DNA from: Rhodoplanes sp. Z2-YC6860
GTDB taxonomy: Bacteria; Pseudomonadota; Alphaproteobacteria; Rhizobiales; Xanthobacteraceae
NCBI RefSeq assembly: GCF_001579845.1
Contig: NZ_CP007440.1
Coordinates: 4,424,029-4,488,028 of the forward strand
Length of the DNA stretch: 64,000 nt
Reading direction: 5' to 3'
A program made the position numbers and the translations under genes. The notes under the pieces were generated by a model that did not search any database, had not been told where the DNA came from, and saw only the letters and a program-made list of their open reading frames with translations. Shown piece after piece: positions 10,901 to 14,943 of the stretch (the first letter of the stretch is position 1; every line of letters starts with the position of its first letter).

Positions 10901-13066
10901 TTAGAAGTGATACGCGATCCCGCCGTAGACGGTGCGGCCGGCCGCTGGAAAGCCGACGGCATATTCATAGTTGCTGTTGAAGAGATTGGTTGCCCGCACA
11001 TAGACATCGATGCCATTGGCGAAGGATTTCTGGATACGCGCGTTGACCACCGCGTAATTGGAGAGCTTTTGCCGCACGGCTGCGTTTGATTTGGAGCCGA
11101 CCGATTGGTCCATAAAGTAGGACAGGTCGCTCGACACCTGCCAGCCGGGATAAGGCTCGTATGTGGCGAGCAGATCGATGACGTGGCGCGGCCGGTAATC
11201 GACGGGCAATCCTGACGAAGGATAGCGCATGTCGAGATAAGTGTAGCCCGGCCGGAAGGTCACGTTCGGCAGCGGCGAGTAAGCGCCCGAAACCTGGAAA
11301 CCAGACATGGTCACGTCGCGGTTGACATAGATCTGGTTGATCTGATCGTTGAGGATGAAATTGTTCACATCGTTGTGGAACGCGCTGGCGCGCAATTGCG
11401 CATTCGGCGCGAGCGTCCAGGCAAGGCCGGCTTCATAGTTGTCCGATTCCTCGGGGCGCAATGTGCTGTTTCCTTGCTGCGGATTGAACAGTTGATCAAT
11501 GGTCGGAAAGCGGACCTTGTGTGCATACGTGCCAAAGGCGAGCAGACTCTGCGTCAGATCGTAGCCGACGCTCCCCATCCATTGCGAGCCGATGTCCGTT
11601 GTATCCACGCGCTCGAACCAGTGATGGCTGTAGCCCATCGTCAAATGCAGACGAGGCATTGGATCGACGCGATACTCGGTGGCAGCCGATGTCGTCGACA
11701 GATCATGAGACTCGCCCAATGTGCGCCAGCCATACTGTGTCGCTTTGCTGCCGCTACCGCCGCCAGCCCCGCCGCCGGTGCCTTTACCTCCGCCACTACC
11801 GCTTAGAACGATGTCGCGGATGGAGCCGGATAGATCTTCAGCCTCCCGGCGGATCGCCACGTTCGAGGTGATGCTGCCGAAGGCGCCAAGATCGTAGCGC
11901 GCCTCAGCCTGTCCGCCGCTGACGGTCGTGTGGATCATTTCATCGAACGTTTTGGCGGTCGGATCCGTCATGGTTGTGTAGTTGGCGTTGTCGAAGCGTT
12001 TGTCGCGCACGTCGAGCTTGTTGATATAGCCCGTGAAGCGCAGCGCGAGCGGGCCGCCGGGCTCGTAGCCGGCATCGAATTGTGCCGACTTGCCGACGAT
12101 CGGGCCGAGCCGTTCGAAGTTCTGCCCTGACGTGAAGGGATTGTTCGATCCCGGTGCAATCGTATTCGCCGGCAAGCCTTCATGGCCGCTCAAATGGCTG
12201 ACGCTGAGGCCGAGTCGCCAATCGCCAAGACGGGCGCCGAAATTGGCGAACACATTCGATTGCTCGCTGTCGCTGTTGCTACGAGAGTTGCCGTCGGGCA
12301 GCACAAAGGCGTTACGCTTCATGTTGCTACCGCTGACGAAGAAATCGAAATTCTCGACGCCGCCGGACAACGTGCCATAAGTGCGGCGCGCGCTGCCGCC
12401 GCCAATTTCAGTACCGACATCGCCATGAACACCGCTGGTGCCCTTCTTGGTAATGATGTCGATGACGCCGGCAATCGTCCCTGGTCCGTAGAGAACCGAA
12501 CTTGGGCCCTGGATGATTTTGAGCTGGTCGATGTTCTCGGTCGGGATCAGCGAAGGGTCGAACTGGCCGTCCACGGCCGAATTCAGCGGAACGCCATTGA
12601 GAAAAATCTGCGTTTGGCGCGGCGGCAGACCGCGCATCATGATGCGCGGAATGCCCTGGCCGCCGCTCGTGACAACCACGCCCGGAACGGCACGCACCGC
12701 TTCATCGAGGCTCCGTGCGCCTTTTTGTACGATCTGCTCATCGGTGACGATTGACGTGGTTTCCGCCGTTGCCTCGGCAGGCGCTCGCCCGGGGACGGCC
12801 GACTCGGCAGGCCTGCGCGCGTCCTTTTGCTCGATCCGCTTATAGCTAACGACCGGCGTGTTCCTTTTCCGCGTTGGCTTTTTGGGCGCACGCTTGGTGA
12901 CGGCGATTTTGCGAAGCGTAACTGATTCAATGTTGGAGGCACGCTTGGTAACGACGACTTCGCCGAGCGTATAGGGCTCGGTGCGTTTTTTGGTCTCTTC
13001 TTCGGCTGTGGCCGGACCGATAACTGAAGACAGTCCCAGGATCGCGGAAACGACGCGACGGATCAT
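10901..13066 (-). CDS. TonB-dependent outer-membrane receptor
   Basis: A 721-residue receptor with a signal peptide (MIRRVVSAILGLSSVIGPATA), a plug domain (DEAVRAVPGVVVTSGGQGIP; IMMRGLPPRQTQIFLNGVPL; QGPSSVLYGPGTIAGVIDII) and a 22-strand-type barrel ending in an aromatic residue (GGIAYHF). It moves a scarce solute across the outer membrane using TonB energy. Two odd points: the N-terminus holds two TonB-box-like copies 17 residues apart (EVVVTKRA at 36-43, KIAVTKRA at 53-60), and an extracellular loop near residues 422-440 carries a Gly-rich insertion. It is the third gene of an operon with an S-component-like membrane protein and a TiaS-like protein, which suggests a ligand other than the common siderophores. 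Ligand unknown. Confidence 0.9.
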   Translation of the reverse strand: MIRRVVSAILGLSSVIGPATAEEETKKRTEPYTLGEVVVTKRASNIESVTLRKIAVTKRAPKKPTRKRNTPVVSYKRIEQKDARRPAESAVPGRAPAEATAETTSIVTDEQIVQKGARSLDEAVRAVPGVVVTSGGQGIPRIMMRGLPPRQTQIFLNGVPLNSAVDGQFDPSLIPTENIDQLKIIQGPSSVLYGPGTIAGVIDIITKKGTSGVHGDVGTEIGGGSARRTYGTLSGGVENFDFFVSGSNMKRNAFVLPDGNSRSNSDSEQSNVFANFGARLGDWRLGLSVSHLSGHEGLPANTIAPGSNNPFTSGQNFERLGPIVGKSAQFDAGYEPGGPLALRFTGYINKLDVRDKRFDNANYTTMTDPTAKTFDEMIHTTVSGGQAEARYDLGAFGSITSNVAIRREAEDLSGSIRDIVLSGSGGGKGTGGGAGGGSGSKATQYGWRTLGESHDLSTTSAATEYRVDPMPRLHLTMGYSHHWFERVDTTDIGSQWMGSVGYDLTQSLLAFGTYAHKVRFPTIDQLFNPQQGNSTLRPEESDNYEAGLAWTLAPNAQLRASAFHNDVNNFILNDQINQIYVNRDVTMSGFQVSGAYSPLPNVTFRPGYTYLDMRYPSSGLPVDYRPRHVIDLLATYEPYPGWQVSSDLSYFMDQSVGSKSNAAVRQKLSNYAVVNARIQKSFANGIDVYVRATNLFNSNYEYAVGFPAAGRTVYGGIAYHF

Positions 13067-13117
13067 TGCGTAACTTCTTTATTTTCGGGTGGAAAGGCTG
13101 GTGGAAACGAACGCGCC

Positions 13118-13654
13118 TTAGCGGCGCAAGCGCACCAGCAGGAAAGCGGCGAAAACGCCGCCGGCCAGGCCGAACAGAAAATGGCTGGACAGAGGGTACA
13201 GAAGTCCGCTGCGGCCGAAGCCTGCGCCAAAGACCACGATGCTCACAAATTTGACGGCATTCGCCAATCCGGCCGAGAAGCCGATGCCCAAAAGCGAGTT
13301 GCGCACAGCCGGGCCGAACAGGCTCAGAGAATCGATGACCAAGCCTGGGAGCAAATAGACCAAGGCGCCGTGAGGTCCGATGCTGCCGTTGGCCATACCG
13401 AAAATGGCGGCGGTGCACGCTGCGGCGCTTGCGGCCCAAGACCGTCCGGTCACACCGCGCGCTGCAACCAATATGGCCATGACGATCAGGCCGCGCCAAC
13501 CGGGCAGATGCAATGGCAGTCGCAGCCAGGTATCGACCGCCCACACCAGCACGCCGGCAGCGAAGCAGATGCCAAGACCAGCGGGAACGCTGACCGGCGC
13601 TTCAGAACTGCCGGAGAATATCTTTTGAAGCGAGCTGCCAGTCAAAGTGGTCAT
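13118..13654 (-). CDS. six-helix membrane protein resembling an ECF transporter S component
   Basis: A 178-residue hydrophobic protein with about six predicted helices and little else, the size and plan of substrate-binding S components of energy-coupling-factor vitamin/cofactor transporters. The segment GSIGPHGALVYLLPGLVID resembles the loop-helix seen in several S components. No EcfA or EcfT gene is nearby. The ATG at 13654 has AGGAAG 6-8 bases upstream and lies 53 bases inside the upstream gene, so translation is probably coupled. It ends 51 bases before the TonB receptor gene. The family call is by plan and context, not by a diagnostic motif. Confidence 0.6.
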   Translation of the reverse strand: MTTLTGSSLQKIFSGSSEAPVSVPAGLGICFAAGVLVWAVDTWLRLPLHLPGWRGLIVMAILVAARGVTGRSWAASAAACTAAIFGMANGSIGPHGALVYLLPGLVIDSLSLFGPAVRNSLLGIGFSAGLANAVKFVSIVVFGAGFGRSGLLYPLSSHFLFGLAGGVFAAFLLVRLRR

Positions 13655-14390
13655 AGGGACTTCCTGAAGGTTCGACGAGAAGAACGGCCTGGCCGTCGAT
13701 CATGACGCTGCGCGGCCAAGGGCGGACATCGATGCGGTCGGTCGCGTCCACCGGCTCGCCGCTGTGGGCGTGACGAATGGCGTCGACCCCGGAATGGGTC
13801 AGAAGGTAGGTGCCGGTGACAATGCCGCGGGTCTCGCGCAGGCCCGGTCGCCAGGCGATGCGGCCGTCACGACCACTTTTGCGCAATCCCACCGCGGCGA
13901 GCGCGCCGATCACGCCGCCATGGTCGCCTGTCAGGCCCTCCAGCAGCAGCGCCTCACGCCCGGCCAGATCGCGCGCCTCTTTCTGGGTGAGAATGTCCCG
14001 CTTGGCCTTGGAGCCAAAGTCCTCAGCGGCCGACGAAACGGCGGACCAGAGCGCGATGCACAGACCTGCATCGGATCCGTCGGCGCTGTGCTCCAACAGG
14101 TAGGTCCGGCACAGCTCTGCCAAGGCGGGTGTATTCTTGGAAGGCATTTCAACCCGCAGGCACAGCGAGCTGTTATGCGACGTGTAGGGAATGCGCCGGT
14201 CGAACAGCAGTTGATGACGGGTGATCTCATGCACCCGAGCCACTCCAGACGAGCCAATCAGCGCGCCCAACTGTCGCGATAGATAGCCGGTCCCGTGGCT
14301 ATCGAGGTTGTCGGTATCGTCGATCCCAACAAGGATTACCTGGTCCGCTTGAGGCGCGGACGGCGTGATCGGGCGCTGCGTAGAAACCAT
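13602..14390 (-). CDS. TiaS-like protein (tRNA-Ile2 agmatinylcytidine synthetase N-domain, DUF1743-related)
   Basis: A 262-residue soluble protein whose N-terminus carries ILVGIDDTDN (residues 19-28), the signature of the kinase-like domain of archaeal TiaS (GIDDTDSPxGMCT), which uses ATP and agmatine to modify tRNA-Ile2 C34. Further conserved-looking parts are YTSHNSSLCLRVEMP and LEGLTGDHGGVIGALAAVG. Archaeal TiaS is about 420 residues with OB-fold and zinc-ribbon domains for tRNA binding; these are absent here, and bacteria normally use TilS for this tRNA. The protein therefore probably acts on something else, perhaps a small molecule imported by the co-transcribed TonB receptor and membrane protein. 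It is the first gene of that operon. The family relation is moderately sure; the function is unknown. Confidence 0.7.
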   Translation of the reverse strand: MVSTQRPITPSAPQADQVILVGIDDTDNLDSHGTGYLSRQLGALIGSSGVARVHEITRHQLLFDRRIPYTSHNSSLCLRVEMPSKNTPALAELCRTYLLEHSADGSDAGLCIALWSAVSSAAEDFGSKAKRDILTQKEARDLAGREALLLEGLTGDHGGVIGALAAVGLRKSGRDGRIAWRPGLRETRGIVTGTYLLTHSGVDAIRHAHSGEPVDATDRIDVRPWPRSVMIDGQAVLLVEPSGSPYDHFDWQLASKDILRQF

Positions 14391-14412
14391 ATCGATCCGA
14401 CAAGGAAGGCTC

Positions 14413-14430
14413 TATATTCCGTTGAATATA
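14413..14430 (-). promoter_or_regulatory. perfect palindromic operator at the TiaS-like/TonB operon promoter
   Basis: TATATTC (14413-14419), CGTT, then GAATATA (14424-14430): perfect 7-base arms with a 4-base spacer, 22 bases upstream of the first start codon of the operon. On the transcribed (minus) strand a perfect -35 hexamer TTGACA occupies 14454-14459 and a weak -10 would lie next to the palindrome, so a bound protein would block transcription. The half-site CGTTATATT recalls ModE-type molybdate/tungstate boxes, but this is only a resemblance. Confidence 0.6.
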
Positions 14431-14453
14431 ACGTACGTATTTCAATGAGCATG

Positions 14454-14459
14454 TGTCAA
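14454..14459 (-). promoter_or_regulatory. -35 element (TTGACA) of the TiaS-like/TonB operon
   Basis: Read on the minus strand, the bases are exactly TTGACA. With an 18-base spacer the -10 would be TACGTT (14430-14435), a weak match that overlaps the edge of the palindromic operator. The arrangement of a strong -35, weak -10 and operator at the start site is common in tightly repressed uptake operons. Confidence 0.4.
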
Positions 14460-14561
14460 TCTTCATGGCTGATGATAACGTCAGCGCCGCCCGCGCCACT
14501 GATCCGTCGTTACCTCCAAGGCGGGAGCGTCGCTCATTCGATCTAAGGCATCGCACCAGAG

Positions 14562-14943
14562 CTATCCGCGCGACATCGGCGCCGACGAAGTGATCGGCTG
14601 CAATACCACCGACCTCACCAAGTCCGTGAGCGACGCCGACGCGGTGTCCGACACCTTCGAGGCGATGTGGCGACGCGGTTGCTCGCGGTTCTCAAGCCCG
14701 ACGGCTGCGCGGCCTTCATCGCCTCAGGCGCGAAGGCGCCATAGCCCGATCACAGCGACGTGGCGGCGTTGCGCCCGGATGCCTCCGGCGACCGGCCGCA
14801 TGTGGAGCGCGTTGCTGCGTTTTATCGGGAGGGACCGATCCGCTCGCCGCATTTCACTCGACAAGCCATCAGAGGCGGCCGAAGCGCCCCGGATCGGTGA
14901 GGCGCGCCACTTCAAAGGCAGGCTGGCGTTCAAGGTGCGTTGA
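14562..14943 (+). pseudogene. broken 3' copy of the MDR oxidoreductase gene at 1252-2175
   Basis: The bases from 14562 align with 1791 onward of the MDR gene and end in the same place: protein remnants ARHFKGRLAFKVR here and ARHFKGKLVFKVR there. A one-base deletion lies near 14660 (GACACCTTCGAGGCGATG against GACACCGTCGGCGGCGATG), and the original frame has an in-frame TAG at about 14742 (AKAP-stop). The 5' two thirds of the gene are missing. It is a decayed partial paralogue about 12.4 kb from the intact gene, next to tRNA-Pro. Confidence 0.85.

Follow-up and report, generated by a model that had tools for sequence, protein, structure and literature searches.

What does a kinase-type domain related to a tRNA-modifying enzyme do in a bacterial operon whose other genes point to uptake? 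The question is raised by a stretch of 64,000 nucleotides (hereafter the window, G000:C1:4424029-4488028) of the 8.19-Mb single-contig genome of Rhodoplanes sp. Z2-YC6860. Three genes follow each other there on the reverse strand: TIA (13602..14390), coding for a 262-residue protein with a TiaS-type kinase (TCKD) domain; MEM (13118..13654), coding for a 178-residue S-component-like membrane protein; and the gene of a 721-residue TonB-dependent receptor (10901..13066). A function of this operon in tungsten or molybdenum metabolism seems to us very likely, and it is probably a ModE-controlled module for the acquisition of these metals, in which TIA would use ATP after uptake. The case is built on gene linkage, family relations, a ModE-type box and riboswitches at related loci, all apparent in the sequences.

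The three genes and their families

A first-pass annotation of the window had described the three genes as one operon, and rereading bore out the layout: the start codon of MEM lies inside TIA, the two genes overlapping by 53 bases, MEM and the receptor gene are 51 bases apart, and the third gene does code for a TonB-dependent receptor, with both its Plug and its beta-barrel domain above the Pfam cut-offs. Scanning one genome collection with TIA as query yielded 60 loci, to which later genome searches added four, for a total of 64. Since the loci were chosen by TIA only, their neighbours form an independent test. Looking up to 4 kb from TIA and on its strand, we found a relative of MEM in 30 of the 64 loci (including four more distant relatives in L022, L023, L025, and L080), a relative of the TonB receptor in 22, and both in 21. 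The complete trio is present in Pseudomonadota and Bacteroidota (Nitrobacter winogradskyi and Methylophaga thiooxydans are two of its carriers), which confirms the co-occurrence that the first-pass annotation had proposed to count, while TIA extends to further phyla; the loci from Planctomycetota and Chloroflexota (L051 and L058) carry TIA-MEM, with no receptor found. The gene order varies: besides TIA-MEM-TonB there is a form with one further protein before the receptor in Bacteroidetes (TIA-MEM-unknown protein-TonB), and MEM-TonB-TIA in L031, L033, and L079. The overlap between TIA and MEM recurs at 50 to 65 bases in 16 of 20 loci, counting MEM from its first ATG. Many loci belong to near relatives (Acetobacterium, Rhodocyclaceae bins), so the locus counts are not independent events. 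TIA itself is rare: among 297 genomes of the order two have it, and among 398 of the phylum four (the Rhodoplanes genome counted in both), yet it occurs in six phyla, assigned partly by record titles: Pseudomonadota, Bacteroidota, Planctomycetota, Chloroflexota, Desulfobacterota, and Bacillota. In Nitrobacter winogradskyi the intact TIA is directly preceded by a second copy that is broken in two (L001:6659-7431).

As a single sequence, TIA exceeds no Pfam or NCBIfam cut-off. Its sole Pfam match at E 1 is TiaS_TCKD (E 0.28), and NCBIfam gives methan_mark_11 (E 2.8e-11) and TiaS (E 1.1e-6), all under cut-off. As a family profile of 42 rows, it matches the TiaS chains 3amt, 3au7, and 4rvz at E about 3e-11, and the 252-residue chain 3u02 at the same value. 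The underlying alignment (A1) holds 42 of 61 sequences, from the window and 41 of the 60 loci, near-duplicate, truncated, and mis-extended ones having been excluded. The match to TiaS is confined to profile positions 1 to 155, a stretch equal in size to the 156 positions of the Pfam TiaS_TCKD model, and the approximately 100 C-terminal residues have no assigned fold. A TiaS-type kinase domain lacking the tRNA-binding OB fold and zinc ribbon, as predicted at first pass, is what a protein of 262 residues with a match that stops at position 155 amounts to. Neither was the ferredoxin-like domain of TiaS (TiaS_FLD) found in the Rhodoplanes genome (0 matches), while the positive control gave matches in four archaea. 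Conservation within the family is strong. IDDTDNL is present in 42 of 42 rows, and G-T/S-G, R-H-Q-L, T-S-H-N-S, D-x-G, G-x-I-G-x-L, and D-G are nearly invariant; the TIA of the window shows the blocks IDDTDNLDSxGTG, TRHQL, PYTSHNS, and GVIGALA...DGR. The position aligned with Thr18 of TiaS, which we take to be its autophosphorylation site, is T in 35 of the 42 rows and S in the other 7.

MEM gave no Pfam or NCBIfam match at E 1 as a single sequence, and none of 25 members of its family could be placed in a named S-component family, the best Pfam value being E 0.0082 (ThrE, two members) and ABC_cobalt appearing in only one of the 25 at E 0.16. However, the profile of the MEM alignment (A2, the window and 24 loci) matched that of the S-like proteins of energy-coupling factor (ECF) operons with a probability of 96.6 (E 5e-10, 159 columns), against 0.1 to 0.5% for three control comparisons among unlike membrane proteins. 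A further alignment (A4) was built from 11 of the 21 loci that make up cluster c2. The MEM hidden Markov model detects the S-like protein of the ECF operon in L022, L023, and L080 but not in L078. Because of this homology of MEM to membrane subunits whose genes lie with those of EcfA and EcfT beside TIA, we regard MEM, on sequence grounds, as S-component-like by descent, as the first-pass annotation had it. Comparison of MEM and the ECF-related membrane proteins with solved structures gave no relevant match.

Three types of importer accompany TIA. Type A consists of MEM and the TonB receptor. Type B, found in Firmicutes, consists of a Peripla_BP_2 binding protein, a FecCD permease, and an ATPase (families searched in one representative). 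Type D, found in L022, L023, L078, and L080, combines EcfT with a two-domain ATPase and a small membrane protein; in the two loci in which its families were tested (L023 and L078), EcfT is above the CbiQ cut-off. Some genomes thus do add EcfA and EcfT, and many add metal genes, as the first-pass annotation had suggested looking for. TIA is constant while the importers vary, and since two of the types are supplied with ATPases of their own, a motor function of TIA is unlikely; we rejected TIA as the motor of MEM on this ground. The Rhodoplanes genome gave no EcfT (CbiQ family) match, no search for EcfA having been made, so MEM would act alone or with an unknown motor. Big_5 Ig-like proteins, possibly cell-surface metal binders, are encoded alongside TIA and the importer of type B in several Firmicute loci (L053:8905-10074 and relatives; the family was identified in one representative).

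Tungsten and molybdenum around TIA

The neighbours of TIA point to two metals. Recurrent among them are the molybdenum storage protein (MoSto, E 2e-68), ModE-domain and TupA-like proteins, and a helix-turn-helix protein with a periplasmic-binding-protein-like domain. In seven Desulfobulbaceae-type loci, TIA is divergent from MoSto genes; in L058, a WtpA above the TIGR03730 cut-off and a WtpB-like gene lie directly before TIA-MEM; and a MoeA-like gene is near TIA in L036. Several of these identities are best matches under the curated cut-off. At least one gene of a seed set (TupA, WtpA, ModE, MoSto, MoeA, and the helix-turn-helix regulator) was present in 28 of the 60 loci, 8 of which are the loci that supplied the seeds and one of which (L005) counts by the regulator only, whereas none of the 20 control stretches (18 taken from TIA genomes, two from the window; 277 kb versus 835 kb of TIA loci) had one. 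The seeds were picked among recurrent neighbours, and the control therefore tests their rarity and not their choice. On this difference, and on the linkage of MEM and the receptor gene to TIA, we rejected chance linkage. A TupA-like gene (E at most 1e-10) was found in 29 of 40 TIA genomes and, across the phylum, in 75 of 398. The comparison is rough, since some of the 40 genomes belong to other phyla and since TupA without TIA is a common state in the Rhodoplanes family; the four TIA genomes within the phylum sample are all positive. The genes after TIA in L024, considered as tungstate transporters, look instead like an amino-acid ATP-binding cassette (ABC) system and were discarded.

In the window, the link to these metals is a palindrome of ModE type (CGNTATAT-N8-ATATANCG, one mismatch) at 14410..14433, 19 bases before the start codon of TIA. 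The pattern, which we take to be the ModE consensus, was defined from the operon of the one clear ModE-domain gene of the Rhodoplanes genome (E 5.3e-25), where a perfect palindrome is found, CGCTATATCTTGTCAGATATAGCG. That operon encodes relatives of the type B set: a binding protein, a FecCD permease, and an ATPase. The third-best solved match of its binding protein is HI_1472 (1.7e-20), presumably MolA of a molybdate transporter, the two better ones being labelled only "periplasmic binding protein". With at most one mismatch, the pattern occurs four times in 8.19 Mb (in an AT run, in the ModE operon, before an aldehyde-dehydrogenase-like gene identified by eye, and before TIA), whereas the reversed pattern used as control does not occur at all. 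At up to two mismatches the window has one site versus 0.02 expected by chance. Boxes with zero to two mismatches also precede TIA in L001, L003, L007, and L012, and a second box lies near the start of the TonB gene in L003 and L012. The Rhodoplanes genome thus has both a ModE gene and a palindrome at the promoter of the operon, as a ModE regulon would, and the label "repressed" that the operon had been given fits the position of this predicted site. Around these sites we also observed a 443-residue DUF2325-like protein (by eye) encoded between the perfect box and ModE (L070:6978-8309); the third site, with one mismatch, at G000:C1:3959403-3959426 (L067), between a Bug-type binding protein gene and the aldehyde-dehydrogenase-like gene (both by eye); and, at 14540-14943 of the window, an apparent remnant of a zinc-type alcohol dehydrogenase gene (by eye) between a tRNA-Pro and the TIA promoter.

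A third line of evidence comes from riboswitches. An Rfam scan of 39 TIA loci (37 of the 60, L078, and L080; L060 was left out for its size) found the molybdenum cofactor (Moco)/tungsten riboswitch RF01055 in 12 (L022, L023, L024, L026, L028, L036, L039, L042, L045, L046, L050, and L052), and in none of six control stretches. In L022 it ends 96 bases before TIA, and elsewhere it precedes importer genes, MoeA, or TupA. The third consensus helix, taken as stem P3, is absent in 15 of the 16 matches. Regulski and colleagues report that 17 of 19 organisms with P3-less forms carry genes that indicate tungsten-cofactor metabolism (PMC2408646). The missing P3 therefore favours tungsten, and of the two metals we lean towards it as the one that the TIA family mainly handles. 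The first-pass annotation had deduced the uptake of a scarce, probably cofactor-like compound; considering the neighbours, the ModE-type box, and the riboswitches, the most likely identity of that compound is some form of tungsten or molybdenum.

Several observations weigh against this assignment. Seeded genes are missing from 32 of the 60 loci, and in the window no tungsten or molybdenum gene adjoins the trio, the ModE-type box being the only local link. In 56 of the 60 loci, the 400 bases before TIA offer no site with fewer than four mismatches, L077 to L080 have no box at up to two mismatches, and the ModE match of the Rhodoplanes genome itself stays under its cut-off (90.1 versus 98.5 bits). 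No TupA match reached the curated cut-off, and the gene is common in the Rhodoplanes family also where TIA is absent. RF01055 was not found in three pieces of the Rhodoplanes genome, one of them with the trio (L071), and the sole riboswitch with P3 is located in L036, ahead of the MoeA-like gene and 4 kb from TIA. The tungsten enzymes of the aldehyde ferredoxin oxidoreductase (AFOR) type (PF01314) are absent from the Rhodoplanes genome, so we dropped AFOR as the reason for a tungsten need there, and they occur in only one of the four TIA genomes of the phylum sample. The lack of an EcfT match in the Rhodoplanes genome belongs here as well, as does the distribution of the Firmicute-type binding protein, which 16 of the 40 TIA genomes from outside the Firmicutes have at E 1e-10 but only 8 at 1e-20, with no control genomes for comparison.

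A proposed role for TIA and its alternatives

Transport direction, substrate, regulation, and the chemistry of TIA are what we infer beyond the gene record. Under metal scarcity, the promoter would be released from ModE. The TonB receptor would then move a tungsten (or molybdenum) species, either the oxyanion or a complex, across the outer membrane, and MEM would be made by translation coupled to that of TIA. The step at the inner membrane could be taken by MEM or by the MolA/FecCD-type ABC transporter of the ModE operon. In the cytosol, TIA would use ATP on the imported species or on its organic ligand, thereby trapping the species or freeing the metal for cofactor synthesis or storage. The kinase ancestry of TIA suggests phosphoryl transfer to a metal ligand, a pterin, or the oxyanion. 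That TIA is an ATP-using phosphotransferase seems probable; the odds that its target is the imported species or the ligand of that species we judge to be even. A more specific version, in which the TonB/ECF-like route imports tungsten (or molybdenum) in organic form, as a "tungstophore" or bound to a pterin, and the TiaS-related kinase phosphorylates that small molecule in the cytosol so that the metal is freed or trapped, can be put forward only tentatively.

The best surviving alternative, though an unlikely one, is cofactor salvage, in which a pterin cofactor of molybdopterin type, or its precursor, would be imported and then re-phosphorylated or activated by TIA as a salvage kinase. Kinases act after vitamin uptake by S components, and it is general knowledge that S components and TonB receptors commonly handle vitamin-like compounds; the Moco/tungsten riboswitch ahead of several TIA operons and the presence of a kinase-like domain next to several unlike importers would also suit such a pathway. 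However, the neighbours include genes for the metal oxyanions (TupA, WtpA, MoSto, ModE), the MoeA-like neighbours act downstream of pterin synthesis, and the ModE-type boxes indicate metal.

Somewhat less likely again is that the trio imports the plain oxyanion and that TIA is a non-kinase protein handling tungsten or molybdenum as a chaperone, sensor, or storage helper. The divergent arrangement with MoSto in the seven Desulfobulbaceae-type loci would agree with this, and so would a small protein with four conserved cysteines, whose gene comes after TIA in nine loci and forms a fusion with it in L024 (alignment A6: L026, L033, L034, L036, L046, L053, L056, L078, L080, and L024). The two members searched gave no family match; perhaps the protein is a metal-handling partner of TIA. 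Against a non-kinase function, all 42 rows keep IDDTD and have threonine or serine at the Thr18-aligned position, as expected of a working active site. In L026, genes for a family 2B encapsulin shell and a cysteine desulfurase are located downstream of TIA (L026:9136-11920).

It is quite improbable that the trio imports some other metal or a siderophore and that its tungsten and molybdenum neighbours are incidental. The NCBIfam scores of the receptor are scattered across siderophore, B12, and heme models, and an S-like relative matches the ABC_cobalt model weakly, but the contrast between TIA loci and controls in seed genes, the ModE-type boxes, and the Moco/tungsten riboswitches speak for tungsten or molybdenum. 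Finally, a tRNA modification like that of TiaS, the operon position being accidental, is barely credible despite the homology of TIA to the TiaS kinase domain, since TilS is above its cut-off in each of the 25 TIA genomes checked, out of 65 and with Rhodoplanes among them, which makes agmatidine formation on tRNA-Ile2 by TIA unneeded and agrees with the first-pass proposal that TIA works away from tRNA, and since the match to TiaS ends at position 155, TiaS_FLD is missing, and TIA is linked to uptake genes.

Returning to the acquisition module that we favour, its resemblance to described systems is one of parts. TIA shares with TiaS (tRNA-Ile2 agmatidine synthetase) 155 positions, the IDDTD motif, and a Thr/Ser at the position aligned with Thr18, and differs from it by the lack of the later TiaS domains, by its occurrence in bacteria with TilS, and by its metal uptake neighbours. 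Its best NCBIfam match, methanogenesis marker protein 11 (TIGR03280), aligns model positions 130 to 284 with TIA residues 13 to 171, leaving the first 129 positions unmatched, at 43.1 bits versus a cut-off of 255.8; no function for that protein was found in the literature among the matches listed. MEM is related to the S-like proteins of ECF transporters of the CbiMNQO type present in TIA loci, but the Rhodoplanes genome has no EcfT match and the surrounding genes and riboswitches indicate tungsten or molybdenum, not cobalt, the metal of the CbiMNQO transporter dealt with in PMC13119186.

The MolBCA-type molybdate transporter (HI_1472) is matched by the binding protein of the Rhodoplanes ModE operon, and its relatives adjoin TIA in Firmicutes; to our knowledge, it has no TonB receptor, S component, or TIA as partner. 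TupABC, WtpABC, and ModABC, the three ABC types named for tungstate and molybdate uptake in PMC11980592 (2025), transport the same metals as proposed for the trio, and TupA-like or WtpA genes are near TIA in many loci, but the trio consists of other proteins and adds an outer-membrane receptor and a kinase-like protein. A literature search in which subscription journals are thinly covered found no TonB-dependent, ECF-like, or TiaS-like tungsten or molybdenum system among the matches listed, nor does one appear in the available portions of PMC2408646, PMC13197769, PMC11938285, PMC11980592, PMC9246946, and PMC7694415. TonB was not found together with molybdate, tungstate, or ModE in the titles and abstract beginnings of the matches listed, the search for ECF with tungstate or molybdate found no such system, and nothing relevant on TiaS/DUF1743 in bacteria was found among the best 10 of 557 matches. 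By term search of partial texts, PMC6147048 does not mention TonB, outer membrane, ECF, or TiaS, and PMC13197769 does not mention TonB.

Consequences for metal uptake and the TIA family

The component types are known, and it is their combination and the assignment to a metal that are new relative to the literature searched. If the proposal is correct, an outer-membrane receptor and an S-component-like carrier would constitute an unrecognised route of tungsten and molybdenum uptake, one that the ModE-type box and the riboswitches make directly testable in metal-limited cultures. It would also provide the first functional frame for a protein family whose member here exceeds no Pfam or NCBIfam cut-off. 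A domain of the tRNA-kinase type would then be used for small-molecule or metal chemistry, and, should the tentative version with an imported organic complex hold, the archaeal tRNA-modifying kinase and a bacterial metal-salvage kinase would share one ancestor.

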